A stretch of DNA of 64,000 nt, taken from positions 109,040 through 173,039 of the forward strand of contig JAGKQI010000011.1 of assembly GCA_018806915.1 (NCBI GenBank), read 5' to 3'. Every line of letters starts with the position of its first letter. The stretch's first letter is position 1. Shown here one piece after another: positions 8,869 to 57,395 of the stretch. The position numbers were made by a program, and so were the translations under genes. Under the pieces are notes generated by a model. It saw only the letters and a program-made list of their open reading frames with translations, was not told the DNA's origin and did not search any database. This DNA comes from Phytophthora colocasiae. Lineage: Eukaryota; Oomycota; Peronosporomycetes; Peronosporales; Peronosporaceae.

Positions 8869-9806
8869 TCACGCTGGATTCTTTACGCTTGGCGCTAAGT
8901 ACTTCGAGATAGATCTCTCCTCACGGTGCCATTCAACATGAGCAGCTTCAATGCACCAGGCGATCAGGAATCGCTTGTTGCATCTTGGATAAGGGACACA
9001 CCAGATCAACTTCATCTTCCGACGACGAAGCCGAATCCTGGTTCAAGACCATTTCCAACACAGGTGCGCGCATCCTGGAAACCAGGAAGAACGTCGCCAC
9101 CGTCAAAGATCTCCACGCAGTGTTGTCGCCAACTTTTTAGCATTGTACGTCTCCATTGTTGTCGAGATAGTACTCATACATCCGCTGAAAGTCTGGGCGT
9201 GGGTCGATCAGCCATAGCCAACTGGACGCCGTGCTGGAAAATATTCGTTTCGCATCTTTCGATCAAGAGCGCTGCGTTGAGAGCCTCGACCAGAGAGCTT
9301 ATCAATCTCAACAACAAAGGTGGGAACAAAGGGATCGCCACGACCACGTCCATATCTGTTCACGAGTCAAATTCACTGTCATCATGTGTCGCGGTATTGG
9401 CGTTATGCCACGTCAGGCATCCCTCACTTCGGGCTTTTCCGGGACGCTGCTCCAGAATGAACGCCCCTTGCGAGGTTGTCACTCCGCCTCCTTTTCTAGA
9501 CCACTTTGACCACTGACCAAGGAGCTCTGTAATCTTGGCCCGCCACCCCTTCTCGTTGCCATATACGACCATTCGAAAGGGGGATGAAGCGACCTTCGTC
9601 GATGAAGAACGCCAGCGCTGCTCGCCAAAAACGGGGTTCACCAGTGGACCTAGCTTCTTCACGTGATGATTCAACTGTGGTTCAGCTCTACTCCAGGATT
9701 AGTCGCCCGACGTAACACAAAGTCGTCTTCGTTTCCAAGTCGCGTACACGCAGAGTCGCGTAAAGTGACCATCTTCTGCCCGAGGTTTCTTGCCTTTGTC
9801 CGCCAT
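8869..9806 (-). pseudogene. Uma2-C2H2 protein, copy between units A and B (broken)
   Basis: It is read leftward from the ATG complementary to 9804-9806 to the stop at 8869-8871. Homology to the intact 294-residue copy at 47924-48808 is evident throughout, but frame breaks occur near 9000, 9080, 9130, 9330, 9540 and 9710. The insertions are small and scattered. They fit either decay or uncorrected sequence. Confidence 0.65.
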
Positions 9807-22032: not shown

Positions 22033-22835
22033 AGTGATCGGGTTCTTTTAAATACATGTAAGATTTTCTTTCAGACGAAATGAAGTCGCTGTCTGATCGG
22101 ACTACGGGTTTCCAGACCAAGAAGATACTGACGATGAGGACTGCGTTCCCGACGACGAGGATGTCCTACATTCTCGTCGACATCCAAGAATGAGCCTTGT
22201 CGTCTTCGCTCACTCTGTACGTTGCGTTTGTAGTTTGAGTTGGCGGTTTGAGTGTGACTGACGTGCCATGACAGGACAGAGTCTGTCCGTCACCCAAAGT
22301 TAACATTACAGTTATTTTTACTTTCCGTAATTCTACCATCTAGACCTTCTTTCGGACCAGGTGCTACCTGTGGTACCTACGTATTGCGATCCAGTCGTCG
22401 TACAGGGATGCTGGCTTCATCAGCATGCGGATGAGCTTTGACCCAGACCGGAAAACTATCACGCTGTAACTGATCCAACAGTTAGGCTTTGACTGCCGAT
22501 TGATCTCCATTCGGAACGAATGCCCCAAATTTGGGTTGCCCATCAGTCAAGGTAGAACAGTCTATCTACAGCTATTGAATTAGCTTGAGATCGTTGCAGG
22601 TTAGTCCAAAGAGTTGTCCACCTATCTAGTTAATCAAATTTCTTCTACGTATTTTTTGGATGTTGGGCCTGACCGTCAAACTATAAAGCAATAGATAGTA
22701 TTATCTTCTCTTATGATTTCTTATTCCTGATTGGTGCCACCAACTATCTTTTTAGATCTCAAGCTATGAGTTCTGCGATATGGTTAGATAGGAACTTGTC
22801 GAAGCGTAGTTGCTACACCTGGATGGATAGTGAGT
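22033..22835. other. unit B intergenic tail
   Basis: This is homologous to 31419-32192. The short exon open in units C and D (31709-31942) is altered here: the stretch at about 22405-22470 has substitutions as well as indels, so its upstream half reads differently and is interrupted. No other gene is supported. Confidence 0.5.
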
Positions 22836-23718
22836 TCACGCTGGATTCTTACGCTTGGCTAAGTACTTCGAGAGATAGATCTCTCACGGTGCCATTCAAC
22901 ATGAGCAGTCAATGCACCAGGCGATCGGAATCGCTTGTTGCATCTTGGATAGGGACACACCAGATCAACTTCATCTTCCGACGACGAACCCGAATCCTGG
23001 TTCAAGACCATTTCCAACACAGGTGCGCGCACCTGAAACCAGGAAGAACGTCGCCACCGTCAAGATCTCTCCACGCAGTGTTGTCATAGCATTGTACGTC
23101 TCCATTGTTGTCGAGATAGTACTCATACATCCGCTGAAAGTCTGGGCGTGGGTCGATCAGCCAACCCAACTGGACGCCGTGCTGGAAATATTCGTTTCGC
23201 ATCTTTCGATCAAGAGCGCTGCGTTGAGAGCCTCGACCAGAGAGCTTATCAATCTCAACAACAAAGATGGGAACAAAGGGTTCGCCACGATACGTCCATA
23301 TCTGTTCACGAGTCAAATTCCTGTCATCATGTCGCGGTGTGTATGCCACGTCGGGCATCCTCACTTCGGGCTTTCCGGGACGCTGCTCCAGAATGAACGC
23401 CCCTTGCGAGGTTGTCACTCCGCCTCCTTTTCTAGACCACTTTGACCACTGACCAAGGAGCTCTGTAATCTTGGCCGCCACTTTCTCGTTGCCATATACG
23501 ACCATTCGTAAAGGGATGAAGCGACCTTCGTCGATGAAGAACGCCAGCTGCTCGCCAAAAACGGGGTTCACCAGTGGACCTAGCTTCTTCACGTGATGAT
23601 TCAACTGGTTCAGCTCTACTCCAGGATAGTCCTTGACGTAGCACAAAGTCGTCTTCGTTTCCAAGTCGCGTACGAGTCGCGTAAGGACGTCTTCGTGAGG
23701 TTTTTGCTTGTCCGCCAT
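22836..23718 (-). pseudogene. Uma2-C2H2 protein, copy between units B and C (frameshifted)
   Basis: It is read leftward from the ATG complement at 23716-23718. The first 230 residues are open and match the intact unit D copy, including PDVAY and FVVEIDK of the nuclease fold. A single missing C near 23032 (GCACCTGAAACC against GCACCCTGAAACC in D) shifts the frame, ending at 23002. This removes the acidic linker and the C2H2 finger. Further indels near 22870-22890 disturb the last 15 codons. It is either a nuclease-only variant or a sequence error. Confidence 0.8.
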
Positions 23719-24089
23719 CGCTGCTCTTTCTCACTGAGTGCTTTTCGACCGAGAAATTACACGTTGTGGTCCACACTTTTTAAGGTCGGTCCTAGATTAG
23801 GCAAAGTGTCACTTACGGTACTATTATAATACCCGACTGTTCTTAAAGATGTGTGCAGACTTACAAGATGTAGCAAACAGCTGTGTGGGCACAGTGAGCG
23901 ACATTAATGTGTATCCACGTTAATATATGTCGCTCAATGTATTCCTTGTGCCTGAGAGTAGTAAGCCAATCCGATATTTTTTTGAAATCTTCCCAACTTT
24001 CGGATTCACTCCAGCGACTCAATGTCATCGTCCTCTACTGGTGCATACTTGGTTGACGAATCTGCTACAATATGGCAGAAATGTGTGAA

Positions 24090-26822: not shown

Positions 26823-26920
26823 TGCGGTTCACGTTAGTTGATTCCGTTATCTGACGTAGTTCGCAAACAAGGTCTGAAGTAGTTCGCAAACAGGGCCTCG
26901 GTGCTGAACTCCTATATTTC

Positions 26921-28024
26921 TCAGTCGTATCGCGAGTTGCCGCTGTTGGATCCTGGTCGTCGTGTGATGCCCAGTGACGTGAGAATGAGATCCGTAGCAG
27001 CAGCTTGACTAGCTAGGAGCCGTTTGACCTCTTCCAGTTCCTTGGCTGCAGACTGCTCCACAGCTACAAGTCGCTCCTCGAAAGCTTGGGTCGCAGTTGC
27101 GAATCGCTCAGCCACTCTTACAGCCTCTTGTTGTGCCTGCTCTCGAAGCGCAAGTTCTCGACGCTGTGCATCGATGATTGAGACCAGCGTTGCTCGCTCA
27201 CTGTATCGTTGTCAGTTGATTACGTCGGTAAAAGCATCAAGAAGAGTTCAACGTACCTTTCCCAAGCCTCCTCTTCCTTTGACGTGTGAACGTCACAAGC
27301 CGCATGCGTGCATCGAGGAGACTTACTTGACCTTGAAGTCTGTGCTTTTGCCTTAGACTTTCCTGGTTTCTTTAACTTAACTTGTTCCACTGCAGGAATC
27401 TGTCGAGTAGGCGATTCGATCGTGCTTTGCCGTGGTTTCTGCAGATATTTTCACAGTCAGCAAGGGTTTACAGATCCAACCACTTTGTCTCACCCAATTC
27501 GTCGTACTAAGTGTAAAAGGCTCGACCGTCGTGACCTTGTTGTAGTCCTTGGTCAGTTGCACCCTGCCAATCTGCATCACAACCGTATTAAAAGCTGTAG
27601 CCACCCAAGCCTTAACTTCCGAATTGCAGTCAGTCGCTCGTACTTCTGCTGCGCTTCAACTACATGTTCCCGAGCACGTTCTTGTCGTGCCAGGTGCATC
27701 TGGATGGAGCTTTCTTGCGACTCAGTTGGGTGCAGCAGAGCCGCCTCCGTCTCAGAAGCAGTGGCCATAGTAAAGCGATTTCCATGTGCTTCTTCCTCTT
27801 CAGCAGCGAACTCCTCTGCTCGCAACGACCTTGAATTCGTCTATAGAAATTCCATTTAGCCGAACCTTCAGTAAAAAAAAAATCCGGTTAAAAAGATGCA
27901 TCACCTTGGGTGAAAACGTGCACTCGTTATCCTGCTGCAGTCGCAGCTCCTGTGATTTACTCGCCAGCTTGCGCTGTCCGTGCAGCTTCCAGGCCAACTG
28001 CTTGTCGTAGATGGCGCTGTCCAT
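26921..28024 (-). CDS. coiled-coil hypothetical protein, unit C copy
   Basis: It is read leftward from the ATG complement at 28022-28024 (MDSAIYDKQLAWKLHGQRK) to the stop at 26921. I do not recognise the family. The pieces run: a basic start with ECTFSPK at about residue 36; a charged EEFAAEEEEAHGN stretch; a helical REHVVEAQQKYERL segment; a linker; and a heptad-like C-terminal part (AERFATATQAFEERLVAVEQSAAKEL is split by nothing) ending SGNSRYD. They lie in different frames (around 27800-27825, 27580-27600, 27380 and 27200), so short introns or frame breaks must separate them, and I cannot fix the exon ends. It is divergently arranged with bZIP1 across about 410 bp. A cytoskeletal or scaffold role would be a guess. 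Confidence 0.5.
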
Positions 28025-28054
28025 TTGTGCCTCTTCAATACAGTGTACCAATAA

Positions 28055-28160
28055 GCTTAATTTTATTTAAGCTCAAATTAAGACAATTTTATTTAAGCTC
28101 ACTGAGTTGGTAAAACTAATTAAGGCTTAATTTTATTTAAGCTCACTGAGTTGGTTGGGG
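28055..28160. repeat. three AATTTTATTTAAGCTC direct repeats, unit C
   Basis: Three copies of the 16 bp word lie in the divergent gap upstream of both the coiled-coil gene and bZIP1. The last two continue with CACTGAGTTGGT, making a 28 bp direct repeat. Further down, GTCGTTARCCTGTGTAATGC is repeated twice just before the bZIP1 ATG (about 28384-28438). Confidence 0.75.
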
Positions 28161-28434
28161 TAAACATCACACCCGTCTAGCGCGCTCAATACAGCGAAAG
28201 GAGAGGCGTAACTTGGCATACGTTTAGAAGGCATCTTTACCAACATATCTGAATTGTGCCACAGCGGCGGAGTGCTTGTAGCGAGCGCACCACCACGATA
28301 AAGCACTGGATACGAGCTTATTTTTGCGGTGGTTGGCGTTCTTTCACCAACCACCACGGCATCGCTCGCTGAAAATTACGTCAGTCGTTAGCCTGTGTAA
28401 TGCAGAGTCGCTTCATCTGTCGTTAACCTGTGTA

Positions 28435-29811
28435 ATGCCGATTCGCTTGCCTCCGCTCGTGCCGCCGCCGCCACTGCGAGCGCCTGTAGCACGCGCTACC
28501 ACTGCAGATTCCTCACCGGCATCACCGTCTTCTTCACCCAGTACGATGACGACTGCTGCGGACCAGAGACGCCGACAGACGTCTGCAAAGCAGCGAGTAA
28601 CGCTGGACGACGTAGAGCGCCACATTATGCAGATTTCACCGCACTTACCGTCAGATACCAAGTGCCGCATGGCCAAGGCGCAGCTCAAGCGTCTCAAGCA
28701 CTGCGAGATCGTGCGCCAGTCGCGCGTACGCAAGAAGGTGAGGACATGGATGCTATACTGTCATTGACATGATAACTTTTTATAAACCTATATATGACTG
28801 GTTAAACAGAACGAGCGTAAAGGACTACGCCAGGTAAATGACGAGCTGGAAACAGAGCTGAACAATATGCTGACGACCTACAGACGCCAACACGACTGGA
28901 TGCAGTTCGACGAACGCAGTCTACGCGATGTTCTGTTCAAAAAGTTTGTGCATTCGATCTACGAGGTGCGCGGACTCCGCAGAGAAAGCTCGGAGCTCAA
29001 AGACCAGATCCTCATCTACGACGCACTGGGAGAGCAGATGCAACGGCTTCAGGAAGACTTTACAATTCCGAGACAACTTGGCTCGAGAACGTCCATCGGC
29101 ACAGTCCACTTCCAGGAACTCTCGGTGGAAGAAGCTAGAGATATCATGATCGATTCGCACCGGCAAGCAACATCATTCTTCGAAACGATGCAGAAGGTGG
29201 AGGCTGGAGAGGAGGAGAAGACGATGGGTTGGACGCAGCACCAACGGATCACACAGGACGGAAGAGTGCAGTTCAACTTTACAAAGAGGATTGAGACCAT
29301 TGGGACGGAGGAGCTGGTGCACAAGAGCTGGGAAATGTACTGCGACTTTGGACTGTATCACGGCATCTATTCGTCCGTGCAGAAGCTCGAGATTCTACAG
29401 AAAATCAATGACAACACGCTGTTGATCCGCCGAGACCTACAGGAAGGAGCTCAGCACCAATATTCCGCACAGTCTTCCTGCTGTTCCGGATACGACTGCC
29501 GAATGGATACCTCATCTGTTTCCAGATCGCACAACCCCGCGGTGTGCGTCGAGGACGACGACGACCCGAATGTGCAGTGGATGGAAATGTTTTACTGGCT
29601 TATGATCACGGACCCACCCCAAGAGGATGCAGAACAGGGAGTTGTTGGGCCTCAAAGACCTCCCGTGCGAGGTTGTGATGTCACATTTGGGGCAATCTCA
29701 CTCAACGGCCGAAGCAGAAAGCACGCCACGATTTGGAAGTACCAGATCGCGATGGCTCTACTCCGTTGGGAGAGTAACACTGCTGCGCCATTGTTCGCGC
29801 TGTATGGATAG
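28435..29811 (+). CDS. bZIP-type regulator bZIP1, unit C copy (locally garbled)
   Basis: It has the same gene structure as the unit D copy: exon 1 28435-28737, a 72 bp GT-AG intron 28738-28809, and exon 2 28810-29811. The total length is equal to D (434 residues). Compared with D it has two pairs of compensating single-base indels. One lost G near 29451 and one gained C near 29521 replace about 23 residues, including the conserved VFLLFRIRLPNGYLICF core, with unrelated sequence. A lost G near 29692 and a gained A near 29700 change three residues. The frame survives, but the conserved domain is damaged or mis-sequenced. The gene is convergent with the CRN-like body. Confidence 0.8.
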
Positions 29812-30077
29812 TGCTAATTTCTCTAATATTTATCCAAAACTGTATAGGACGAACTTAGTAGTAGGTAGCCATTATTGCGCCATGTTGGCTACGATTGTAT
29901 TGCCTATCAGTCCCTGCTATTTTGTATAATATTTAGTTGGACTCCACTCTAGAAACTCTTAAGCGCTATGGACGATCAGAGATACCTTTCGATGCCATGA
30001 TTAAGCAGATGAGTGCAAGTAAGAAGATCTCAATTAGCAAAAGGATTGCAACGCTTGGACGATCATATGGAAGATAT

Positions 30078-30960
30078 TTATTGCAGCATCGTGTAAATTT
30101 TCCCGACGATTTCTTTTAATCCTTCAAAAGTCGGTATGGTATCGGTGAGTGGAAGAGTACACTCTTGCTGTCGGACCCTCTCGTCTTCACTGATCAAGAA
30201 CTTCCACTCGAGAAAATTAGTCACAATGCCATACACCACAGATAGTTCTTCGACATCAGCAACAACTTCCAGCCCCGTCACATTCTGAACCAGTCCTTGC
30301 AGCATATCTTCACGCTTTGCTTGGACAAGTGAAAGTCTCTTGGTGCCACGCTGGAGCACGAACTCGAATCGACCTTTCAGGAGCACGTTCTTCCCAACCA
30401 CGTCTTCTTTGACTAATATGCGGACGTTCTTGAGTAGACGACTAACAGTTTCAAGGATCGGGGCGATAAAAAGCAATCTCTTGGCTTCTTTCCCATCCCA
30501 GAGTTGTCCATAGAGTTCCCGCATGTCAACAATACGAGCGAGGAGTAGCTCGATCTCAGCATCAGGAATATCGCTGGGCTGAAGGTCGTAAGAATCGTCG
30601 AAGTTGTAAATAGGTTTGATATCTTCCTAACAAAGACTCGAATAGTCCGCAGTCTTGTCGACATCGTGTTTTTTCCGCTTTTTGTGTGTTTTTCTTCGCG
30701 TTTGTCTTCTGGTTCACCTCTTGATTCTTCTGACGAATCATTGCATTGATTGCAGCCCATCGCTTAAGACGTTCGGAGTGACGGTATATTGTAGTTGGTG
30801 GTGCCACGCCGAGAGCCATGGCTGGGGAGCGGTCGTTTTCTTGCTTCGGAACTACCACCAGCACGTGGATAGCCTTCTTCGTCGGAGCACCTCCAAACAC
30901 GTCGCCAATCTCTTCCGCTGGGTCGATTTCTCCGTCCAGCAGCCCCTTTACGTGATCAGG
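30078..30960 (-). CDS. CRN-like effector body (DWL tail and PD-(D/E)XK-like C-terminus), unit C
   Basis: It is read leftward. The upstream part ends a DWL-type domain with the CRN hallmark IHVLVVVP (about 30865). The C-terminal part (30524-30078) has the [21 protein letters not shown] pattern of the restriction-endonuclease-like domain found in many CRN C-termini, followed by [13 protein letters not shown]. In that family the last acidic residue of the core is usually E (VEAK); here it is Q (VQAK), which would weaken or abolish metal-dependent nuclease activity. The two parts are separated by a poly-A frame difference near 30690 and an in-frame TAG near 30629, so the body is broken as read. 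No ATG or header precedes it on this strand; the LFLAK header starts at 30961 on the opposite strand. CRNs act inside host cells. Confidence 0.65.
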
Positions 30961-31146
30961 ATGCTTTTCAGTGCGATCGTTGGTGCGGCGGGCAGCGCGT
31001 TCTCGGTGAGGGTAGATATAAGCGACACGGTGGGCGACTTGAAGAAGGTAATCAAGGTGGAAAATGCAAGAACTATTACGTGTGGCGCCAAAGACCTGCA
31101 GCTCTTCCTGGCGGCGCGTGACTGCCGTCGAACGATGCTGGTGTGA
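30961..31146 (+). CDS. CRN LFLAK header module (orphan), unit C
   Basis: The 61-codon frame [14 protein letters not shown] ... DLQLFLAA matches the CRN header and differs from the unit B copy by one residue near the end (M for L). It stops at 31144-31146 before any DWL domain. The ATG touches the end of the oppositely oriented CRN body. An expressed product would be a header alone. It is conserved as an open frame in units B and C, but broken in A and D. Confidence 0.65.
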
Positions 31147-31414
31147 GGAGAATTTACGAGCGTATTTAAGGTGTACGTGTTTGAAAGAACCAGATTACTT
31201 TAATGTCTATTCCCAATGGTCTGCTCAATTCCAAATTTTGAAGGATCAGTTGATGTGAAGGAGCAGCACGACGGTAGTCATCTTTTGTCACCTGGGACCT
31301 CAGAGTTTACGCGAACCAGGCGGCGTATGACCAGCCAACCGCTACAAGTGAACTCGGCGATCGAGTATGGCGAGATGGATGTTATACTTTAATGGTTTTT
31401 TTCTTGATTAGCCA

Positions 31415-31418
31415 TTAA
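31415..31418. other. empty piggyBac target site (TTAA), unit C
   Basis: GATTAGCCATTAAAGTGATCGG here corresponds to both flanks of the 4281 bp element in unit B joined at a single TTAA. This is the pre-insertion, or precisely excised, state. Confidence 0.9.
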
Positions 31419-31708
31419 AGTGATCGGGTTCTTTTAAATACATGTAAGATTTTCTTTCAGACGAAATGAAGTCGCTGTCTGATCGGACTACGGGTTTCCA
31501 GACCAAGAAGATACTGACGATGAGGACTGCGTTCCTGACGACGAGGATCGTCGACATCTCAAGAATGAGCCTTGTCTTCTTCGCTCACTTGTACGTTGCG
31601 TTTGTAGTTTGAGTTGGCGTTTTGAGTGTGACTGATGTGCCATGACAGGACGAGTCTGTGCGTCACTCGCCGGCAGTTATTTTTTACTTTCCGTAATTTA
31701 CCATCTAG

Positions 31709-31942
31709 ACCTTCTTTCGGACCAGGTGCTACCTGTGGTACCTACGTATTGCGAACCAGTCGTCGTACAGGATGTTTATTTACCAGCATGCGGATGAGCT
31801 TAACTGTGACCGGAAAACTATCACGCTACTGATCCAACAGTTAGGCTTTGACTGCCGATTGATCTCCATTCGGAACGAATGCCCCAAATTTGGGTTGCCC
31901 ATCAGTCAAGGTAGAACAGTCTATCTACAGCTATTGAATTAG
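31709..31942 (+). CDS. 3' exon of an unrecognised gene, weakly methyltransferase-like, unit C
   Basis: After a good splice acceptor (CCATCTAG) the sequence is open for 77 codons to a TAG. It reads RCYLWYLRIANQSSYRMFIY, then TLLIQQLGFDCRLISI, and FGLPISQGRTVYLQLLN at the end. The LGF...FGLPxxxGR spacing faintly resembles the C5-cytosine methyltransferase stretch before and around the GxPxxRxR motif. This is only a suggestion. I could not find the upstream exon. The same exon is kept in unit D (56810-57043), and its last 36 codons are fused in frame to ABCA2. Confidence 0.35.
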   Translation, partial: TFFRTRCYLWYLRIANQSSYRMFIYQHADELNCDRKTITLLIQQLGFDCRLISIRNECPKFGLPISQGRTVYLQLLN

Positions 31943-32192: not shown

Positions 32193-32296
32193 TCACGCTG
32201 GATTCTTACGCTTGGCTAAGTACTTCGAGATAGATCTCTCCTCACGGTGCCATTCAACATGAGCAGTCAATGCACCAGGCAATCGGAATCGCTTGT
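32193..32296 (-). pseudogene. 3' remnant of Uma2-C2H2 gene at the unit C boundary
   Basis: The last 34 codons of the Uma2-C2H2 gene (second half of the finger, GALTAHVEWH, to the KRKNPA end) are present, then similarity stops abruptly after CGCTTGT at 32296. The sequence beyond is the 5' part of bZIP2. This is a repeat-unit breakpoint. Confidence 0.85.
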
Positions 32297-32321
32297 CGAG
32301 AAGCTCTGTGCCTCCTATTTG

Positions 32322-46300: not shown

Positions 46301-47673
46301 GCTTCGCCACAATGTTCACAGACATGGACCGTCAGTTGAAATCGCTTGGTCTGTTGTCGTATGGAGTGTCAGTGACTACGTTGGAGGAGGTGTTCATCAA
46401 GGTGGCTGAACTGGGTGACGAGAACCACCAGCACACTTTAGGTAACAATGTGCGGACTAATAACTCTGAATCCAGCGACTATCAGCCGTGCGACGAGATC
46501 ATCACGTCCACGCCGATGTTTAGCACACACCTGCGCGCTCTGCTGCTCAAGCGCTTCCGGTACGCCCGACGTGACAAGAAAACCATCATCTACAGCGCGT
46601 TACTACCGGTCTTGCTTATTGCTGCTGGCTTGGGAATCCTCAAGGGCAGTGCAATTGCATCGGACAACCCAACTATGGCGCTGACGACTGATGCGTACGC
46701 AGGTAATGAAACCCCGACGCCGTACTTCTGTCAGACTGGTTCGGATGCTGGAGAATGGTGCGGTGAGGTGATGAAATCGACCTATTTCTCTGGAGCGAAT
46801 GCCCAGGTGCTCTCGATTTCGACGCCGGCGTACGACTCTGATTCCCCCACGGTATTTGACACAACATATACGGACCCGGCCATCAACGCCAGCGGGTACA
46901 CGGGCTACAGCGTTTCAATGGGCCAGCAGCTTTACAACCGCGGATATGGACATGACGCCGACCTTGTTGAAGGGCAGTACGGCGCTTTCTTGGTATATGG
47001 TGATAGTGAGCAGAACCTGTTCGGCTACAACGTCTTCACCAACACGACTGCACCTCATTCATCGGCGATCTTCAAGGCGCTAATGGACCAGGCAGCATAT
47101 CGCTTCTTCTCCAACAGCTCAGAGGCCTCGATCATGAACTTGAAGGTCAATAACTACCCGCTTCCAGTGACTGCCGCCACGAAAGCTTTCTCTGGATCGG
47201 CAGTTGCGTTTGTGGCGTGCATGTTCATCTGCATCGCGTTCACATTCCTGCCGGCTTCTATGGTTGTGTTCTTGGTTAAGGAGAAGCAAGCGGAGCACAA
47301 CTCGAAACACCAGCAGCTCGTCTCCGGTGTGTCGTTGCCAGCCTTCTGGGTGTCCAACTACATTTGGGATCTGGTTATGTACATCGTTCCGTGTGTGTGC
47401 GCGCTTGCCTTGATCTACGGCTTCAACGTGTCATCCATGACCGGTCAGGACTGCAATAGCTGTACATCCGCGACGTTCCCGGCCGTGATCCTGCTCTTCA
47501 TCCTGTTTGGTTTCGCTATCTGCCCGTTTACCTACTGCTTGTCGTTCCTGTTCAAGGTACTGATCCAACAGTTAGGCTTTGACTGCCGATTGATCTCCAT
47601 TCGGAACGAATGCCCCAAATTTGGGTTGCCCATCAGTCAAGGTAGAACAGTCTATCTACAGCTATTGAATTAG
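43381..47673 (+). CDS. ABCA-type transporter ABCA2, truncated and fused to a repeat-derived tail
   Basis: It is open for 1430 codons with no frame break. It starts MAPDKGKANVAKLSERR, at the same place relative to TM1 (WTFIRALLWKNWLIK) as ABCA1. The first membrane domain, NBD1 (Walker A GHNGAGKTT near residue 733; LSGGMKRKLSV and LDEPTSGMDP near 835-865) and the start of the second membrane domain are intact and closely similar to ABCA1. At 47557, inside the second set of TM helices after LSFLFK, the sequence switches to repeat-unit DNA. The frame continues through 38 codons of the 31709-31942 exon (ending FGLPISQGRTVYLQLLN) to the stop. The rest of TMD2 and all of NBD2 are missing. A half-transporter product is possible, but a functional full ABCA is not. 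Confidence 0.9.
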   Translation: MAPDKGKANVAKLSERRTAWTFIRALLWKNWLIKRRHPVATACEVMVPILFIILLGILKSTTTTVAVPSGWSDTSSSTGDAALGTSYNLFQPTGQTIEWVSADLPKFALHESSMTGLLLKLGVQSVDDAIRLEELSTADQATCATGVIVNGLMETDTSSPYRVPTECANKVSPYKIAIAPDNAFTRDYFASVMEMWYPRVDLMNSSESLTVPSFSQSVMFFDTNDALTEYVKSDDYGKGIENPRIYAGIVFDSVPLGDKIGSFESIEYSLRLNSTDGDSVGRVPGTSSSVLDTDPFQTDINVDYYSRYTVTGFMTLQTLVTRFVSCMPEWNSANQSTSGVCQQSQTTALASSILDNILLDTLNDDAFIQEVLNTGFVSGEKSFSSILSNMADDTKELLLTPLRQAPQPFMGATVAPFPVNSFDSSSFYDTISNVFPVIFALSYLFTISRILVVFIQEKELRLREFMKILGVTEKTIIITWYMTYTAILFVGAVVQAVAGLAGLFPKTSVILTFFFFWLFGMSVLALAYLISTIFNRARVGSFVGMIVFFFMHSMSQGFTTGTAEGAKTIGCLLSPVGLSLGVQVLADAETTGAGVTFANVSALSNNFRFSTALWMFAFDTVLYTLIGLYLDKIMPKEYGTTLRWYFPVSPSYWRSRRQRAVTVQTQDALLDNVTLDVNPNIERVNAELREQERQGEALTVQRLRKVFNIPGGEKVAVQGLNLTMYKDQITCLLGHNGAGKTTLISMLTGMTAPSSGNATYRGMSVNEDMDDLRQSLGICFQHDVLFPDLSVEEHLLFFGQIKGYADQELFSVADKQIREVGLTEKRNSKPNDLSGGMKRKLSVAVSLLGDSSLVFLDEPTSGMDPYSRRSTWEILLNNRNDRVMVLTTHFMDEADILGDRIAIMAEGELRCCGSSLFLKNRFGAGYNLTLVKDDGKCDDKAVSAFITSYVPSAQLLSNVGSEIAFQLPLHSSSSFATMFTDMDRQLKSLGLLSYGVSVTTLEEVFIKVAELGDENHQHTLGNNVRTNNSESSDYQPCDEIITSTPMFSTHLRALLLKRFRYARRDKKTIIYSALLPVLLIAAGLGILKGSAIASDNPTMALTTDAYAGNETPTPYFCQTGSDAGEWCGEVMKSTYFSGANAQVLSISTPAYDSDSPTVFDTTYTDPAINASGYTGYSVSMGQQLYNRGYGHDADLVEGQYGAFLVYGDSEQNLFGYNVFTNTTAPHSSAIFKALMDQAAYRFFSNSSEASIMNLKVNNYPLPVTAATKAFSGSAVAFVACMFICIAFTFLPASMVVFLVKEKQAEHNSKHQQLVSGVSLPAFWVSNYIWDLVMYIVPCVCALALIYGFNVSSMTGQDCNSCTSATFPAVILLFILFGFAICPFTYCLSFLFKVLIQQLGFDCRLISIRNECPKFGLPISQGRTVYLQLLN
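47557..47558. other. tandem-duplication junction (ABCA2 / repeat unit)
   Basis: Left of this point the sequence is ABCA2. Right of it, TACTGATCCAACAGTTAGGC matches 31827 onward and 22468 onward. From here the order of genes repeats that seen from about 22.47 kb, displaced by about 25.1 kb. No target duplication or element end is visible at the join. Confidence 0.85.
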
Positions 47674-47923
47674 CTTGAGATCGTTGCAGGTTAGTCCAAA
47701 GAGTTGTCCACCTATCTAGTTAATCAAATTTCTTCTACGTATTTTTTGGATGTTGGGCTCGACCGTCAAACTATAAAGCAATAGATAGTATTATCTTCTC
47801 TTATGATTTCTTATTCCTGATTGGTGCCACCAACTATCTTTTAGATCTCAAGCTATGAGTTCTGCGATATGGTTAGATAGGAACTTGTCGAAGCGTAGTT
47901 GCTACACTGGATGGATAGTGAGT

Positions 47924-48808
47924 TCACGCTGGATTCTTACGCTTGGCTAAGTACTTCGAGATAGATCTCTCCTCACGGTGCCATTCAACATGAGCAGTCA
48001 ATGCACCAGGCGATCGGAATCGCTTGTTGCATCTTGGATAGGGACACACCAGATCAACTTCATCTTCCGACGACGAACCCGAATCCTGGTTCAAGACCAT
48101 TTCCAACACAGGTGCGCGCACCCTGAAACCAGGAAGAACGTCGCCACCGTCAAGATCTCTCCACGCAGTGTTGTCATAGCATTGTACGTCTCCATTGTTG
48201 TCGAGATAGTACTCATACATCCGCTGAAAGTCTGGGCGTGGGTCGATCAGCCAACCCAACTGGACGCCGTGCTGGAAATATTCGTTTCGCATCTTTCGAT
48301 CAAGAGCGCTGCGTTGAGAGCCTCGACCAGAGAGCTTATCAATCTCAACAACAAAGATGGGAACAAAGGGTTCGCCACGATACGTCCATATCTGTTCACG
48401 AGTCAAATTCCTGTCATCATGTCGCGGTGTGTATGCCACGTCGGGCATCCTCACTTCGGGCTTTCCGGGACGCTGCTCCAGAATGAACGCCCCTTGCGAG
48501 GTTGTCACTCCGCCTCCTTTTCTAGACCACTTTGACCACTGACCAAGGAGCTCTGTAATCTTGGCCGCCACTTTCTCGTTGCCATATACGACCATTCGTA
48601 AAGGGATGAAGCGACCTTCGTCGATGAAGAACGCCAGCTGCTCGCCAAAAACAGGGTTCACCAGTGGACCTAGCTTCTTCACGTGATGATTCAACTGGTT
48701 CAGCTCTACTCCAGGATAGTCCTTGACGTAGCACAAAGTCGTCTTCGTTTCCAAGTCGCGTACGAGTCGCGTAAGGACGTCTTCGTGAGGTTTTTGCTTG
48801 TCCGCCAT
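47924..48808 (-). CDS. Uma2-family PD-(D/E)XK nuclease-fold protein with C2H2 finger
   Basis: This is the intact copy: 294 residues, ATG complement at 48806-48808. Residues about 45-230 have the Uma2 (DUF820) pattern: PDVAY at 122-126, VPIFVVEIDKLS at 149-160, a K at 172, then the YFQHGVQLGWLIDP turn at 177-190. D123, E155 and K172 (or K158) fit the PD-(D/E)XK catalytic set. Uma2 is mainly bacterial (very abundant in cyanobacteria). After an acidic SSSEDE linker, residues 255-277 form a C2H2 zinc finger (C255, C260, H273, H277), and the end is basic. The finger suggests nuclear DNA or RNA binding. I infer a fusion of a bacterial-type nuclease fold to a eukaryotic finger; activity is unknown. 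No signal peptide is seen. Confidence 0.82.
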   Translation of the reverse strand: MADKQKPHEDVLTRLVRDLETKTTLCYVKDYPGVELNQLNHHVKKLGPLVNPVFGEQLAFFIDEGRFIPLRMVVYGNEKVAAKITELLGQWSKWSRKGGGVTTSQGAFILEQRPGKPEVRMPDVAYTPRHDDRNLTREQIWTYRGEPFVPIFVVEIDKLSGRGSQRSALDRKMRNEYFQHGVQLGWLIDPRPDFQRMYEYYLDNNGDVQCYDNTAWRDLDGGDVLPGFRVRAPVLEMVLNQDSGSSSEDEVDLVCPYPRCNKRFRSPGALTAHVEWHREERSISKYLAKRKNPA

Positions 48809-49187
48809 CGCTGCTCTTTCTCACTGAGTGCTTTTCGACCGAGAAATTACACGTTGTGGTCCACACTTTTTAAGGTCGGTCCTAGATTAGGCAAAGTGTC
48901 ACTTACGGTACTATTATAATACCCGACTGTTCTTAAAGATGTGTGCAGACTTACAAGATGTAGCAAACAGCGCAAGTGGTCTGTGGGCACAGTGAGCGAC
49001 ATTAATGTGTATCCACGTTAATATATGTCGCTCAATGTATTCCTTGTGCCTGAGAGTAGTAAGCCAATCCGATATTTTTTTGAAATCTTCCCAACTTTCG
49101 GATTCACTCCAGCGACTCAATGTCATCGTCCTCTACTGGTGCATACTTGGTTGACGAATCTGCTACAATATGGCAGAAATGTGTGAA
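48809..49187. other. intergenic region between Uma2-C2H2 and channel gene, unit D
   Basis: About 380 bp with no gene. It contains GAGCGACATTAATGTG ... CGCTC, an imperfect inverted repeat (GTGAGCGACATTAA / TTAATATATGTCGCTCA) at about 48992-49034, conserved in all units. Confidence 0.6.
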
Positions 49188-51918
49188 TTACGAAAGATAA
49201 CCAACAACGACAAAGAGTAGGGATTGCGTCGTACCTGAGCTACGGTTGCGAAGTACCTGTACTGGAGGTGCTGGTTTATTGTCGTCTTCAAATTTCAATG
49301 GATTTTGAGACTTCCACTTTCCATTCGTCTCGTGCATGCTGAAGTTGACGGCTTCTGTTGTGTGGATACTAGGTACTAGTTCCTCCATAGGTTTCCCTGT
49401 TGCAGCGTCCACACTGCGAAGTCTCGAGGCAAAATTTGGTGCAACAACGTGAGTGTGGGTGACGATATCCTGTTGTTCTGGCTCCAATTTCGTCACCAAA
49501 GTCTCGTTGCTGTCATTGTTAGCTGCGTTTGCCTTGGCAATGGCTTCAAGACGCCGATTACTGAGCCAAACACCCCTTTCAAGCCCTCTCCTGGGGTTAT
49601 CATGGCTATTATCTGGTGAATCGGTCGGTACTTGGCGGAAACTCGCATTCCAGTCAAGTGGGTCATTTGCCATTACGATCTGTAGTAGAGGCGAGAAAGC
49701 AGCGTAGCAGTCTTTACCTTCTCTTAACGCGTCCAACATCTTAAACACCTGCTTGGGTAGATCACTCAGCTTGATATCCAGGAAGTGAAGGGGTTCGTCT
49801 TCCTTTTCTTCTTCAATATCATTTAAAGAAGTAACTGGTGTTTCAATTGGAGTTTCCGTTGTCTTTAATCGGTTGGAAACCAGTGCTCGAATTGACATAA
49901 GAGCAGCAGCACTAGCAGAATGAACATTGACCGACTGCTTATGGATTTTTCGTAAATCCTCCACTATTTCCAGCAATGCATCCCCCCAATAGTTCTCCAT
50001 CTCCAATTTCGAACAAGCCACCAGCTTTTTCTTACGGAGATGGTCGTACGCAGCTTCACAGATCCGAAGTGCCAAGTTACTGAAAGGGTGACTATGTAGT
50101 ACTTCAACCAAAGCTTCAACTTAAAGCCAAAGATCACAAGCTCGAACACTTCGGACAGTGTACGTACTGATCGCACTACCTAATAACCCCTTCTCTCCGA
50201 AGAAATCCCCACGTCGAAGTCCAATTGGTCGAGTGAGAGCAAGAAGAGAGCGACTGTGTAGTTGAAGATGTCCTCGAAGCACGAAATACATGGCACGGGC
50301 GATACTCCCCTCCACTACGATACATTCATCGGATGGGTACCTTCGAAGTGCAGATGTTCCACTAACGAATATCTAAACCGTTCCAGTTCATCTAAACCTT
50401 CCAACACGTGGGTTCAATGACGTTTTTGATAAACCAGTCTACAGGTTCTTTCGACACGTGCATGACACAAGCAGTTCGGATAGGTTTCGGCATTTCACCC
50501 AAAATCTCTTCGTAATTAACCCCTGCATGGGACGACCATAACGAAGTCATAAAGGCATGTGCTCGAGCTTTGAGCTTCTCACTAACACGTAATCGAGCCA
50601 AATAAATCTCAATCGCGATGTGGTTCTTACGGAAATCCACCTCCAAACCAATGTACGAGATGAAAAGACTGGCTAATTCACCCAAGACGAACGACATGGT
50701 AATAAGACCCACGAACGAGACGGCGATGTGAAATGCATAGAGAGAAGCTGTTTCCGGTGCTAAATTCCTCGCTTTCTTGACAAATGTTGTAGTTGCAAAG
50801 AAGAGACCACGTAAGAACCGAAGTGTAAGTTGAGAAGGAGAAGGGTCTTCTGGATTCGAGATCACCAGCTCTTGAGACGGAAGCCAAGCGTCCCATTCCT
50901 CACCAAAACCCACTTCATTCGCCACCGCTAAGTAGGCACAAGCAGCCCAGTAGATTAACAGCAAGTAGAGTAAACAAATGTACCAGAAGCGGGTGATTTC
51001 GTACGTGACGCTGCGTCGATTGAGCTCATCCAAGTAACTCACAACGTTGAAGATTTTTAGACAGCGCAGTAATCGGAACCAAGGGCTACAGTGGAAATCG
51101 GATAGAAACCGGTAGAACGGGATAGCAGCGATGATGTCCCACAACATTCTCTCCTTCTTGTAGGTAGAACGTAAATCTTGTTCGTAAAGTTCCATAGAAG
51201 CGGGGGATTCCCGAACGTGCCAACTGAACCAGACGTCGATGATAAACACCAACTCACACATTAACCCAAAGGATTTAACCGCTACCGCCATCGGGGTAGA
51301 GCGGTCGAGATCGTCCATTGCAAGTTGATACGGAGCCAACACAGAGACGTAAAGGATACAAACAACCATGAACCTCAACCAGGCCAAGTGGAAAGCGCTC
51401 TGGACCTCTGTTCCCTCTATCAGACAATGCAGTGGTGTGAGAATGAACCGGTTAACCCATTTGAACACTATTTTCCCCAAATTCGTCGTGTGGCCATCTC
51501 CATGCCTCAATCTCACATGATGCAGCTCCTCCTTGATCCGTTCAGCCCGTTGATTCAGAATATCCGCTCTGGAAAGCATTAACCCCGTTGCAGCATCCGT
51601 TCCTCGTTGTTGCTCCTCACGGGATAATTGCACTAATCGCGTCTGCTCTCGATGGATATTTACGATCCGCATGACCTTCTCTTTCCACTCGGGATAGCGA
51701 TCAAACACCAGCTCCAAAGATTCGCGAGATAATTTGTACAGAATACAGGAGGTTTGTGCTTGGATGTGAGCATTGCGTTTGCCATTGGTAAATAACCCAT
51801 TCTCTCCGAAATAACTCCCAGCCGAGATCTCGTTCACTTTCCGGAGCTGTTCGACCACACTATTTCTTTGGATAGAGGGTCCACTGGAGGATTTACGAAC
51901 CCCAAACGCCACAATTCC
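49188..51918 (-). CDS. cyclic-nucleotide-gated-channel-like protein, unit D copy (3' half frame-broken)
   Basis: This is the best copy of the 5' half: 506 open codons (51912-50392) from the partial first nucleotide-binding fold through all membrane helices and the C-linker. The pore region reads LRFLRGLFFATTTFVKKARNL, with no potassium filter. Deletions then break the frame: a missing C near 50400, another near 50340, and missing bases near 50116-50130. The second binding fold and the polar tail (50111-49188) are open in their own frame. Relative to unit A/B, one G is missing near 51900, so the first codons read VAFGVRK rather than LWRLGVRK. In-frame similarity begins right after a splice acceptor (CCGCAG) and no ATG precedes it. 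Confidence 0.8.
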
Positions 51919-52016
51919 TGCGGTTCACGTTAGTTGATTCCGTTATCTGACGTAGTTCGCAAACAAGGTCTGAAGTAGTTCGCAAACAGGGCCTCGGTGC
52001 TGAACTCCTATATTTC

Positions 52017-53120
52017 TCAGTCGTATCGCGAGTTGCCGCTGTTGGATCCTGGTCGTCGTGTGATGCCCAGTGACGTGAGAATGAGATCCGTAGCAGCAGC
52101 TTGACTAGCTAGGAGCCGTTTGACCTCTTCCAGTTCCTTGGCTGCAGACTGCTCCACAGCTACAAGTCGCTCCTCGAAAGCTTGGGTCGCAGTTGCGAAT
52201 CGCTCAGCCACTCTTACAGCCTCTTGTTGTGCCTGCTCTCGAAGCGCAAGTTCTCGACGCTGTGCATCGATGATTGAGACCAGCGTTGCTCGCTCACTGT
52301 ATCGTTGTCAGTTGATTACGTCGGTAAAAGCATCAAGAAGAGTTCAACGTACCTTTCCCAAGCCTCCTCTTCCTTTGACGTGTGAACGTCACAAGCCGCA
52401 TGCGTGCATCGAGGAGACTTACTTGACCTTGAAGTCTGTGCTTTTGCCTTAGACTTTCCTGGTTTCTTTAACTTAACTTGTTCCACTGCAGGAATCTGTC
52501 GAGTAGGCGATTCGATCGTGCTTTGCCGTGGTTTCTGCAGATATTTTCACAGTCAGCAAGGGTTTACAGATCCAACCACTTTGTCTCACCCAATTCGTCG
52601 TACTAAGTGTAAAAGGCTCGACCGTCGTGACCTTGTTGTAGTCCTTGGTCAGTTGCACCCCTGCCAATCTGCATCACAACCGTATTAAAAGCTGTAGCCA
52701 CCCAAGCCTTAACTTCCGAATTGCAGTCAGTCGCTCGTACTTCTGCTGCGCTTCAACTACATGTTCCCGAGCACGTTCTTGTCGTGCCAGGTGCATCTGG
52801 ATGGAGCTTTCTTGCGACTCAGTTGGGTGCAGCAGAGCCGCCTCCGTCTCAGAAGCAGTGGCCATAGTAAAGCGATTTCCATGTGCTTCTTCCTCTTCAG
52901 CAGCGAACTCCTCTGCTCGCAACGACCTTGAATTCGTCTATAGAAATTCCATTTAGCCGAACCTTCAGTAAAAAAAAATCCGGTTAAAAAGATGCATCAC
53001 CTTGGGTGAAAACGTGCACTCGTTATCCTGCTGCAGTCGCAGCTCCTGTGATTTACTCGCCAGCTTGCGCTGTCCGTGCAGCTTCCAGGCCAACTGCTTG
53101 TCGTAGATGGCGCTGTCCAT
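52017..53120 (-). CDS. coiled-coil hypothetical protein, unit D copy
   Basis: It is nearly identical to the unit C copy (26921-28024). ATG complement at 53118-53120, stop at 52017. It differs by one added C near 52661 and one fewer A in the poly-A run near 52970. The exon structure is not resolved, for the same reasons as in unit C. Confidence 0.5.
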
Positions 53121-53149
53121 TTGTGCCTCTTCAATACAGTGTACCAATA

Positions 53150-53256
53150 AGCTTAATTTTATTTAAGCTCAAATTAAAGACAATTTTATTTAAGCTCACT
53201 GAGTTGGTAAAACTAATTAAGGCTTAATTTTATTTAAGCTCACTGAGTTGGTTGGG
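53150..53256. repeat. three AATTTTATTTAAGCTC direct repeats, unit D
   Basis: The same array as in unit C, with one extra A between the first and second copies. Confidence 0.7.
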
Positions 53257-53531
53257 GCAAACATCACACCCGTCTAGCGCGCTCAATACAGCGAAAGGAG
53301 AGGCGTAACTTGGCATACGTTTAGAAGGCATCTTTACCAACATATCTGAATTGTGCCACAGCGGCGGAGTGCTTGTAGCGAGCGCACCACCACGATAAAG
53401 CACTGGATACGAGCTTATTTTTGCGGTGGTTGGCGTTCTTTCACCAACCACCACGGCATCGCTCGCTGAAAATTACGTCAGTCGTTAGCCTGTGTAATGC
53501 AGAGTCGCTTCATCTGTCGTTAACCTGTGTA

Positions 53532-54908
53532 ATGCCGATTCGCTTGCCTCCGCTCGTGCCGCCGCCGCCACTGCGAGCGCCTGTAGCACGCGCTACCACT
53601 GCAGATTCCTCACCGGCATCACCGTCTTCTTCACCCAGTACGATGACGACTGCTGCGGACCAGAGACGCCGACAGACGTCTGCAAAGCAGCGAGTAACGC
53701 TGGACGACGTAGAGCGCCACATTATGCAGATTTCACCGCACTTACCGTCAGATACCAAGTGCCGCATGGCCAAGGCGCAGCTCAAGCGTCTCAAGCACTG
53801 CGAGATCGTGCGCCAGTCGCGCGTACGCAAGAAGGTGAGGACATGGATGCTATACTGTCATTGACATGATAACTTTTTATAAACCTATATATGACTGGTT
53901 AAACAGAACGAGCGTAAAGGACTACGCCAGGTAAATGACGAGCTGGAAACAGAGCTGAACAATATGCTGACGACCTACAGACGCCAACACGACTGGATGC
54001 AGTTCGACGAACGCAGTCTACGCGATGTTCTGTTCAAAAAGTTTGTGCATTCGATCTACGAGGTGCGCGGACTCCGCAGAGAAAGCTCGGAGCTCAAAGA
54101 CCAGATCCTCATCTACGACGCACTGGGAGAGCAGATGCAACGGCTTCAGGAAGACTTTACAATTCCGAGACAACTTGGCTCGAGAACGTCCATCGGCACA
54201 GTCCACTTCCAGGAACTCTCGGTGGAAGAAGCTAGAGATATCATGATCGATTCGCACCGGCAAGCAACATCATTCTTCGAAACGATGCAGAAGGTGGAGG
54301 CTGGAGAGGAGGAGAAGACGATGGGTTGGACGCAGCACCAACGGATCACACAGGACGGAAGAGTGCAGTTCAACTTTACAAAGAGGATTGAGACCATTGG
54401 GACGGAGGAGCTGGTGCACAAGAGCTGGGAAATGTACTGCGACTTTGGACTGTATCACGGCATCTATTCGTCCGTGCAGAAGCTCGAGATTCTACAGAAA
54501 ATCAATGACAACACGCTGTTGATCCGCCGAGACCTACAGGAAGGGAGCTCAGCACCAATATTCCGCACAGTCTTCCTGCTGTTCCGGATACGACTGCCGA
54601 ATGGATACCTCATCTGTTTCAGATCGCACAACCTCGCGGTGTGCGTCGAGGACGACGACGACCCGAATGTGCAGTGGATGGAAATGTTTTACTGGCTTAT
54701 GATCACGGACCCACCCCAAGAGGATGCAGAACAGGGAGTTGTTGGGCCTCAAAGACCTCCCGTGCGAGGTTGTGATGTCACATTTGGGGGCAATCTCCTC
54801 AACGGCCGAAGCAGAAAGCACGCCACGATTTGGAAGTACCAGATCGCGATGGCTCTACTCCGTTGGGAGAGTAACACTGCTGCGCCATTGTTCGCGCTGT
54901 ATGGATAG
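53532..54908 (+). CDS. bZIP-type regulator bZIP1, intact copy
   Basis: Exon 1 53532-53834, intron 53835-53906 (72 bp, GTGAGG...AACAG), exon 2 53907-54908; 434 residues. A Pro/Ser-rich N-terminus leads to a basic segment (LKRLKHCEIVRQSRVRKK, about residues 84-101), interrupted by the intron exactly at its end, then a coiled coil (NERKGLRQVNDELETEL). The rest carries the same domain as bZIP2: RTVFLLFRIRLPNGYLICFRS at about 308-328 and WKYQIAMALLRWE near the end. Aligned on RxSRxRKK, the near-invariant basic-region Asn is His, followed by Cys. Oomycetes are known to have bZIPs with other residues at this position. The role is inferred to be a nuclear regulator. It is divergent from the coiled-coil gene and convergent with the CRN body. 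Confidence 0.82.
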
Positions 54909-55175
54909 TGCTAATTTCTCTAATATTTATCCAAAACTGTATAGGACGAACTTAGTAGTAGGTAGCCATTATTGCGCCATGTTGGCTACGATTGTATTGC
55001 CTATCAGTCCCTGCTATTTTGTATAATATTTAGTTGGACTCCACTCTAGAAACTCTTAAGCGCTATGGACGATCAGAGATACCTTTCGATGCCATGATTA
55101 AGCAGATGAGTGCAAGTAAGAAGATCTCAATTAGCAAAAGGATTGCAAACGCTTGGACGATCATATGGAAGATAT
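54909..55175. other. 3' intergenic region between bZIP1 and CRN body, unit D
   Basis: About 270 bp between convergent genes. The frame at 55034-55246 is not supported by any domain and differs between units. Confidence 0.5.
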
Positions 55176-56058
55176 TTATTGCAGCATCGTGTAAATTTTC
55201 CCGACGATTTCTTTTAATCCTTCAAAAGTCGGTATGGTATCGGTGAGTGGAAGAGTACACTCTTGCTGTCGGACCCTCTCGTCTTCACTGATCAAGAACT
55301 TCCACTCGAGAAAATTAGTCACAATGCCATACACCACAGATAGTTCTTCGACATCAGCAACAACTTCCAGCCCCGTCACATTCTGAACCAGTCCTTGCAG
55401 CATATCTTCACGCTTTTAGCTTGGACAAGTGAAAGTCTCTTGGTGCCACGCTGGAGCACGAACTCGAATCGACCTTTCAGGAGCACGTTCTTCCCAACCA
55501 CGTCTTCTTTGACTAATATGCGGACGTTCTTGAGTAGACGACTAACAGTTTCAAGGATCGGGGCGATAAAGCAATCTCTTGGCTTCTTTCCCATCCCAGA
55601 GTTGTCCATAGAGTTCCCGCATGTCAACAATACGAGCGAGGAGTAGCTCGATCTCAGCATCAGGAATATCGCTGGGCTGAAGGTCGTAAGAATCGTCGAA
55701 GTTGTAAATAGGTTTGATATCTTCCTAACAAAGACTCGAATAGTCCGCAGTCTTGTCGACATCGTGTTTTTTCCGCTTTTTGTGTGTTTTTCTTCGCGTT
55801 TGTCTTCTGGTTCACCTCTTGATTCTTCTGACGAATCATTGCATTGATTGCAGCCCATCGCTTAAGACGTTCGGAGTGACGGTATATTGTAGTTGGTGGT
55901 GCCACGCCGAGAGCCATGGCTGGGGAGCGGTCGTTTTCTTGCTTCGGAACTACCACCAGCACGTGGATAGCCTTCTTCGTCGGAGCACCTCCAAACACGT
56001 CGCCAATCTCTTCCGCTGGGTCGATTTCTCCGTCCAGTAGCCCCTTTACGTGATCAGG
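55176..56058 (-). pseudogene. CRN-like effector body, unit D copy
   Basis: It is homologous to 30078-30960 with extra damage: two added bases near 55415 (TTTTAGCTTGG) and two fewer A near 55567 split the nuclease-like part. The IHVLVVVP end of the DWL-like domain (about 55963) and the C-terminal [13 protein letters not shown] part are retained, as is the VQAK variant of the catalytic core. The amber codon shared with units B and C is at about 55726. Confidence 0.6.
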
Positions 56059-56246
56059 ATGGCTTTTTCAGTGCGATCGTTGGTGCGGCGGGCAGCGCGT
56101 TCTCGGTGAGGGTAGATATAAGCGACACGGTGGGCGACTTGAAGAAGGTAATCAAGGTGGAAAATGCAAGAACTATTACGTGTGGCGCCAAAGACCTGCA
56201 GCTCGTCCTGGCGGCGCGTGACTGCCGTCGAACGATGCTGGTGTGA
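56059..56246 (+). pseudogene. CRN LFLAK header, unit D copy (frameshifted)
   Basis: The ATG is present but two added bases (GGATGGCTTTTTCAG against GGATGCTTTTCAG) push the header out of frame from codon 2. A substitution near 56204 also changes the LFLA motif (CTCGTCCTG against CTCTTCCTG). Confidence 0.6.
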
Positions 56247-56514
56247 GGGAGAATTTACGAGCGTATTTAAGGTGTACGTGTTTGAAAGAACCAGATTACT
56301 TTAATGTCTATTCCCAATGGTCTGCTCAATTCCAAATTTTGAAGGATCAGTTGATGTGAAGGGAGCAGCACGACGGTAGTCATCTTTTGTCACCTGGGAC
56401 CTCAGAGTTTACGCGAACCAGGCGGCGTATGACCAGCCAACCGCTACAAGTGAACTCGGCGATCGAGTATGGCGAGATGGATGTTATACTTTAATGGTTT
56501 TTCTTGATTAGCCA

Positions 56515-56518
56515 TTAA
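56515..56518. other. empty piggyBac target site (TTAA), unit D
   Basis: GATTAGCCATTAAAGTGATCGG, identical to the unit C empty site, with no element. Confidence 0.9.
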
Positions 56519-56809
56519 AGTGATCGGGTTCTTTTAAATACATGTAAGATTTTCTTTCAGACGAAAGTGAAGTCGCTGTCTGATCGGACTACGGGTTTCC
56601 AGACCAAGAAGATACTGACGATGAGGACTGCGTTCCTGACGACGAGGATCGTCGACATCTCAAGAATGAGCCTTGTCTTCTTCGCTCACTTGTACGTTGC
56701 GTTTGTAGTTTGAGTTGGCGTTTTGAGTGTGACTGATGTGCCATGACAGGACGAGTCTGTGCGTCACTCGCCGGCAGTTATTTTTTACTTTCCGTAATTT
56801 ACCATCTAG

Positions 56810-57043
56810 ACCTTCTTTCGGACCAGGTGCTACCTGTGGTACCTACGTATTGCGAACCAGTCGTCGTACAGGATGTTTATTTACCAGCATGCGGATGAGC
56901 TTAACTGTGACCGGAAAACTATCACGCTACTGATCCAACAGTTAGGCTTTGACTGCCGATTGATCTCCATTCGGAACGAATGCCCCAAATTTGGGTTGCC
57001 CATCAGTCAAGGTAGAACAGTCTATCTACAGCTATTGAATTAG
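56810..57043 (+). CDS. 3' exon of an unrecognised gene, weakly methyltransferase-like, unit D
   Basis: It is identical in frame to 31709-31942: acceptor CCATCTAG, 77 open codons, end FGLPISQGRTVYLQLLN. The conservation of an open frame in two units while neighbours carry indels is mild support that it is coding. Confidence 0.35.
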   Translation, partial: TFFRTRCYLWYLRIANQSSYRMFIYQHADELNCDRKTITLLIQQLGFDCRLISIRNECPKFGLPISQGRTVYLQLLN

Positions 57044-57293: not shown

Positions 57294-57395
57294 TCACGCT
57301 GGATTCTTACGCTTGGCTAAGTACTTCGAGATAGATCTCCTCACGGTGCCATTCAACATGAGCAGTCAATGCACCAGGCAATCGGAATCGCTTGT
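57294..57395 (-). pseudogene. 3' remnant of Uma2-C2H2 gene at the unit D boundary
   Basis: The same truncated remnant as 32193-32296, with the same breakpoint after CGCTTGT and two bases missing near 57339. Confidence 0.8.

Follow-up and report, generated by a model that had tools for sequence, protein, structure and literature searches.

To our knowledge, no function has been agreed upon for proteins of the Uma2 (DUF820) family. The family (PF05685; 1wdj, 3ot2, 6okh, 9y1l) is described as greatly expanded in cyanobacteria in the Pfam text quoted in an earlier report (PMC4102429), and oomycetes are known to possess nucleases of the restriction endonuclease (REase) superfamily in the form of Crinkler (CRN) proteins, which frequently bear REase-type C-termini and localise to nuclei, where their action has been proposed (excerpt of PMC5289972). 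The window considered here is a stretch of 64,000 nucleotides of the Phytophthora colocasiae genome (GCA_018806915.1, contig JAGKQI010000011.1; C70:109040-173039 in an assembly of 92.5 Mb and 105 contigs), which contains at 47924..48808 on the reverse strand an intron-free gene, a single open frame of 294 amino acids plus stop, encoding a Uma2 core followed by a C2H2-like zinc finger. This Uma2-C2H2 protein resembles known Uma2 proteins in its core fold, its PD...E...K layout and its GWLIDP-like and LPGF-like motifs, whereas no C2H2 pattern follows the core in any of 78 bacterial Uma2 frames from genomes (median tail past the ..IDP motif, 41 residues) and the eukaryotic-type sequences separate from the bacterial ones in a tree. 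It differs from the Crinklers in having a Uma2-subfamily core with a C2H2-like finger and in lacking the Crinkler N-terminal domain (PF20147), which is absent from its Pfam matches up to E=1. The preferred reading of the whole, with a rough probability of 0.55, is that the gene belongs to a eukaryotic Uma2 clade that came from a bacterium, that it was extended by a Ser/acidic linker and one C2H2-like finger, and that its product would be a nuclear nuclease.

The Uma2 PD-(D/E)XK core occupies residues ~49-240 (48089..48664, reverse strand, as for all parts of the gene) according to the Pfam match and structure alignment. The Pfam profile spans residues 75-191 with 43.7 bits against a curated cut-off of 27, the four best VIA-align rows fall inside model residues 17-241, and the predicted structure contains the PD-(D/E)XK core in its DUF820-type fold. 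The active site consists of P122-D123 (48440..48445; P in 102 and D in 95 of 113 aligned rows), E155 (48344..48346; 104/113 rows, and invariant in a 57-row alignment) and K172 (48293..48295, in helix 166-180; 101/113 rows), where the counts for this set and for the 83- and 65-row sets used below are drawn solely from the proteins of the window-protein search, and D123, E155 and K172 are each kept in all 40 bacterial rows. The window protein is a Uma2-fold protein with a conserved D/E/K site, and the sequence-only reading, which had recognised this layout and proposed a nuclease, was correct down to the residue numbers. Because of its PD-(D/E)XK active site, the protein is probably a metal-dependent DNA endonuclease.

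A Ser/acidic linker (residues 241-252; 48053..48088; pLDDT, the predicted local distance difference test score, is 69 over residues 241-250) resembles that of fungal relatives, the stretch before the finger being Ser/acidic in both oomycete and fungal proteins. It is followed by the finger (residues 253-277; 47978..48052; C-x4-C-x12-H-x3-H), recognised from ligand conservation and the model, whose ligands C255, C260, H273 and H277 fit the pattern C-x2-4-C-x12-H-x3-5-H. All four ligands are kept by column in 54, and by pattern in 52, of the 65 eukaryotic rows reaching the finger region, and because of this conservation the finger is taken as real, which upholds the previously proposed C-terminal fusion. 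The C-terminal helix with a basic tail (residues 278-294; 47927..47977) is predicted by the model, in which a helix extends over residues 267-291, and several fungal relatives terminate in KKRK-type tails; such tails, we infer, act as nuclear signals. Given the finger, the basic tail and an N-terminus that by eye is not signal-like, the protein probably works in the nucleus of its own organism, with finger and tail serving as a docking or retention module and not as a reader of a long DNA site. A classic DNA-reading finger was considered and rejected, as the helix residues are atypical in the window protein and variable across the family, where position -1 is commonly R (35 rows) or N (19) and position 3 is G or Y, a variation that does not suggest a common DNA site. 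The earlier claim of a nuclear nuclease is therefore retained for the probable nuclease, and its nuclear targeting stays an inference from a single finger with unclassic helix residues and a basic tail.

The Uma2-C2H2 architecture is not specific to P. colocasiae or its locus and recurs in further oomycetes and in a number of early-branching groups of fungi, so that the fusion first noticed in this oomycete exists but is not new to it. The window-protein search yielded 112 proteins from Phytophthora, Plasmopara, Peronospora, Lagenidium, Globisporangium, Aphanomyces, Thraustotheca, Boothiomyces, Rhizophagus and metagenomes, the closest named relatives being those of Phytophthora lilii (up to 91% identity) and P. 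infestans (up to 84%), with the chytrid Boothiomyces matching at 45% identity over 98%. A profile search (best 120 of 1846) and a search with an Entomortierella protein (100 matches) widened the fungal range to Glomus, Gigaspora, Acaulospora, Paraglomus, Cetraspora, Diversispora, Entrophospora, Funneliformis, Mortierella, Calcarisporiella and Jimgerdemannia. The finger pattern is present in 27 of 33 named entries checked. A census of 217 eukaryotic-type proteins, which leaves aside the broken copy in the window (P0002) and a protein of a different Uma2 type (P0231), comprises 93 with core and finger, 74 with the core but no finger, and 50 without a core by pattern; the last are fragments and divergent rows, and many finger-less rows are partial or end at a putative intron. 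Automatically named oomycete proteins belong to the same family, namely P. infestans PITG_12378 and three Plasmopara halstedii entries, whose names, being database names only, already join both domains ('putative restriction endonuclease type II, Zinc finger C2H2-type'). Among the matches listed from open-licence PMC full texts, no paper was found to describe the family, and a Uma2 domain was reported from Trichophyton rubrum in 2014, with no finger mentioned in the excerpt concerned (PMC4102429). In P. aleatoria, P. cactorum and P. idaei, Uma2 is annotated together with a cyclophilin domain (P0067, P0070, P0088), which may represent a further fusion or merged gene models.

The origin of the family was assessed in a tree built from Uma2 columns alone, with 58 eukaryotic-type rows chosen from 158 proteins and 40 bacterial rows, the latter comprising 32 of the best 80 of at least 361 confirmed loci (mostly every third) and 8 metagenome proteins; 19 metagenome rows were called 'eukaryotic', and these 8 'bacterial', on similarity and not by name. 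One branch parts the bacterial from the eukaryotic-type rows with a support of 98 in the quick tree and 99/98 in the careful tree, and it is present in 100% of 200 bootstrap trees. The eukaryotic side contains a set of 18 oomycete, 3 chytrid and 9 metagenome rows (100/100), and a set of 27 fungal-type rows (93/85); a single Rhizophagus row, P0102 in the quick tree, belongs to neither set and also bears the finger pattern. The oomycete label requires three changes on the tree because metagenome rows sit among the oomycete rows. The family is probably one eukaryotic Uma2 clade, founded when a bacterial-type gene was taken up long ago by a eukaryote. A single donor phylum is not singled out by the bacterial rows, which include Cyanobacteriota, Bacteroidota, Acidobacteriota, Planctomycetota, Chloroflexota, one Legionellaceae and one unassigned row beside the metagenome proteins. 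A viral carrier found no backing, since tblastn scans of viral contigs (P0001; alignment A4) gave no relative, although the source may still be a giant virus; a structure search among viral models gave one match under E=0.001 (6e-4), with a template modelling (TM) score of 0.20.

Finger-bearing members occur on either side of the main eukaryotic split, which indicates that the gain of the finger is old, and the simplest account is a fusion predating the separation of the oomycete/chytrid and fungal-type sets, in which case loss and transfer between eukaryotes must account for the patchy spread. The proposal of horizontal acquisition followed by finger gain is thus borne out for the bacterial-type origin and the fusion but not for a local gain. 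Many fungal-type frames break at the junction of Uma2 and linker, with codons compatible with a GT splice donor. In a mostly fungal-type set of 120 proteins, which includes no fewer than three that belong to the oomycete or chytrid type (P0138, P0141, P0145), 52 have the finger, 26 are finger-less with ..QV near the junction, and 42 show neither; in 21 of the 26, QV lies exactly 14 residues past the LPGF-like motif and is followed by unrelated sequence or a stop, as expected for an intron beginning with GT at the junction. The finger may therefore have been gained as an added exon, a pattern that fits without amounting to proof.

In the proposed mechanism, a bacterial Uma2 nuclease would have been acquired by a eukaryote, the linker and single finger appended at its C-terminus, and the resulting metal-dependent PD-(D/E)XK endonuclease, held in the nucleus by its C-terminal module, would cut DNA. 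Several observations weigh against this reading. A catalytic residue is altered in 11 of 83 rows and K172 is replaced by R in 12 of 58 eukaryotic tree rows, so that some members may be inactive or have a relocated lysine. The Pfam C2H2 scores lie under their cut-offs (19.1 against 27 and 16.9 against 25.2 bits), for which reason the finger is termed C2H2-like, helix positions -1, 2, 3 and 6 of the window protein are S, G, A and A, and the ligand pattern fails in 13 of 65 rows, two of which (P0050 and P0060) preserve the ligands when compared by column. The finger is also missing in 6 of the 33 named entries, from Lagenidium (one of four), Aphanomyces, Thraustotheca, Entrophospora (the sole one checked) and Mortierella (two short ones). 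Many genome copies are broken, which would also suit a selfish or dispensable gene. A selective value in cutting foreign or mobile DNA is a tentative suggestion, read from the copy-number pattern alone (many copies, birth and death, patchy occurrence). Highly improbable is its narrower form, a nucleus-based, restriction-like defence in which Uma2-C2H2 would cut incoming or mobile DNA lacking (or carrying) host adenine methylation, suggested only by an overlap with lineages rich in N6-methyladenine (6mA). According to excerpts of the respective reports, 6mA is present and 5-methylcytosine (5mC) undetectable in P. infestans and P. sojae (PMC6211444), and early-diverging fungi are 6mA-rich (PMC8298701), but R. 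irregularis, a holder of the family, has greatly reduced 6mA (PMC8298701) and Botrytis, of the Dikarya, also has 6mA (PMC9279130). No methyltransferase was found among 17 window frames run against Pfam, the pairing search being confined to the window. The eukaryotic branch, in which the active site is mostly retained, the finger sits on a linker of one shared kind and the members range from oomycetes to early fungi, would offer a tractable way into the purpose of Uma2 nucleases. It would also clearly exemplify a nuclease of bacterial type to which a eukaryotic module was joined and which very distant eukaryotes then kept or exchanged among themselves.

The copies within the P. colocasiae genome bear on whether the gene works for its host. 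In the window, a second copy (22839..23718, reverse strand) is identical over residues 1-229 and then frameshifted, with the finger in another frame, a third (8872..9756, reverse strand) is decayed with several frame changes and stops, and finger-tail remnants on the same strand end truncated units at 32196..32300 and 57297..57395. A six-frame search of the genome gave 33 matching pieces and the Pfam profile 15 places, one of them (on C57) a distinct finger-less type; this second Uma2 type (G000:C57:2642731-2643051; L019:4253-5218) has 321 amino acids and 29.9 bits and is unlike the Uma2-C2H2 family. On C70 and C9 the gene lies within a tandemly repeated block of ~9.4 kb, and these arrays hold five open copies, 97-100% identical to the query, the others being broken as assembled; dispersed open copies lie on C22, C31 (one of two) and C93, and broken ones on C35 (two) and C39. 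The ratio of nonsynonymous to synonymous substitution rates (dN/dS) is 0.17-0.24 between window-type and dispersed paralogues at dS 1.3-2.4 (Nei-Gojobori, near saturation and hence rough), 0.22-0.77 among near-identical array copies with few changes, and dS is undefined for the pairs C22-C31, C22-C93 and C31-C93. The family is under purifying selection, and such long-term constraint argues for a working protein.

A selfish nuclease, a compact gene copying itself between loci in a homing-like or transposon-carried manner and spreading without benefit to the host, is an unlikely competitor, as copies are numerous and often broken and are patchily distributed over distant lineages, and as the copies on C22 and C39 share two stretches that are 86-88% alike (the gene start, and the later two thirds with ~80 bases past the stop) while their flanks do not align. 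It is countered by purifying selection across dS >1 and by the array copies, which came from tandem duplication of the 9.4-kb block including other genes. Neither terminal repeats nor target duplications were seen by eye around eight copies, the flanks of old copies having diverged, which likewise speaks against the selfish reading and against a mobile element with terminal repeats; an inverted match of 6 bases close to the ends of a single copy pair was judged by eye to be chance, and the paralogue types have no flanks in common except one ~225-base repeat at differing distances. The conserved active site and the purifying selection would equally suit a domesticated, resolvase-like nuclease with a housekeeping role in DNA repair or recombination, and Holliday-junction resolvases are among the weaker structural matches (Z ~5), but the copy number and decay in one genome and the patchy occurrence are unlike a housekeeping gene and make this role quite improbable.

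The CRN gene next to the nuclease had been pointed out as a neighbour, and no functional meaning was found for it. The 9.4-kb block contains an ABC-transporter end, a cNMP_binding-type gene, a 314-aa frame and CRN-like remains at 54900-56260, where by eye an N-terminal-like stretch lies on the forward strand and an REase-like C-terminal part on the reverse; the matching part in the sister unit is the frame 30078-30524, and read by eye the CRN gene in the array looks rearranged. Among the 150 Crinkler matches scored of 532 candidates, none shares a contig with a Uma2-C2H2 copy at a distance of 100 kb or less and none is on C70, C31, C39 or C93, the nearest on C9 being ~125 kb from the array; dispersed copies may still have CRN genes with weaker matches in their vicinity. 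The pairing therefore looks positional, and linkage as a functional unit was rejected, the gene adjoining CRN-like remains only in the tandem block. An effector-like protein delivered into the host plant or another organism could be hinted at by this shared array, by the REase-type, nuclear nature of many CRN proteins (PMC5289972, in part) and by a Crinkler reported from Rhizophagus (PMC6131194), a genus that also holds Uma2-C2H2; with no Crinkler domain, no signal-like N-terminus and no scored Crinkler nearby, it is very unlikely.

The 9.4-kb tandem block (47552-56922; 22462-31821) is nested in a 25-kb repeat, and at its far border lie the Uma2 gene's tail and a copy of the ABC-transporter end. 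The gene adjoining the Uma2 copy (917-2458; 24668-26422; 49188-51672) matches cNMP_binding in two units, with frames of 513 and 584 amino acids; beside the intact Uma2 copy the gene is broken up into two frames, neither of which matches cNMP_binding in Pfam. Between repeat units, at 20246-20716, lies a frame matching DDE_Tnp_1_7 (Pfam 'Transposase IS4') with E=2.3e-10.
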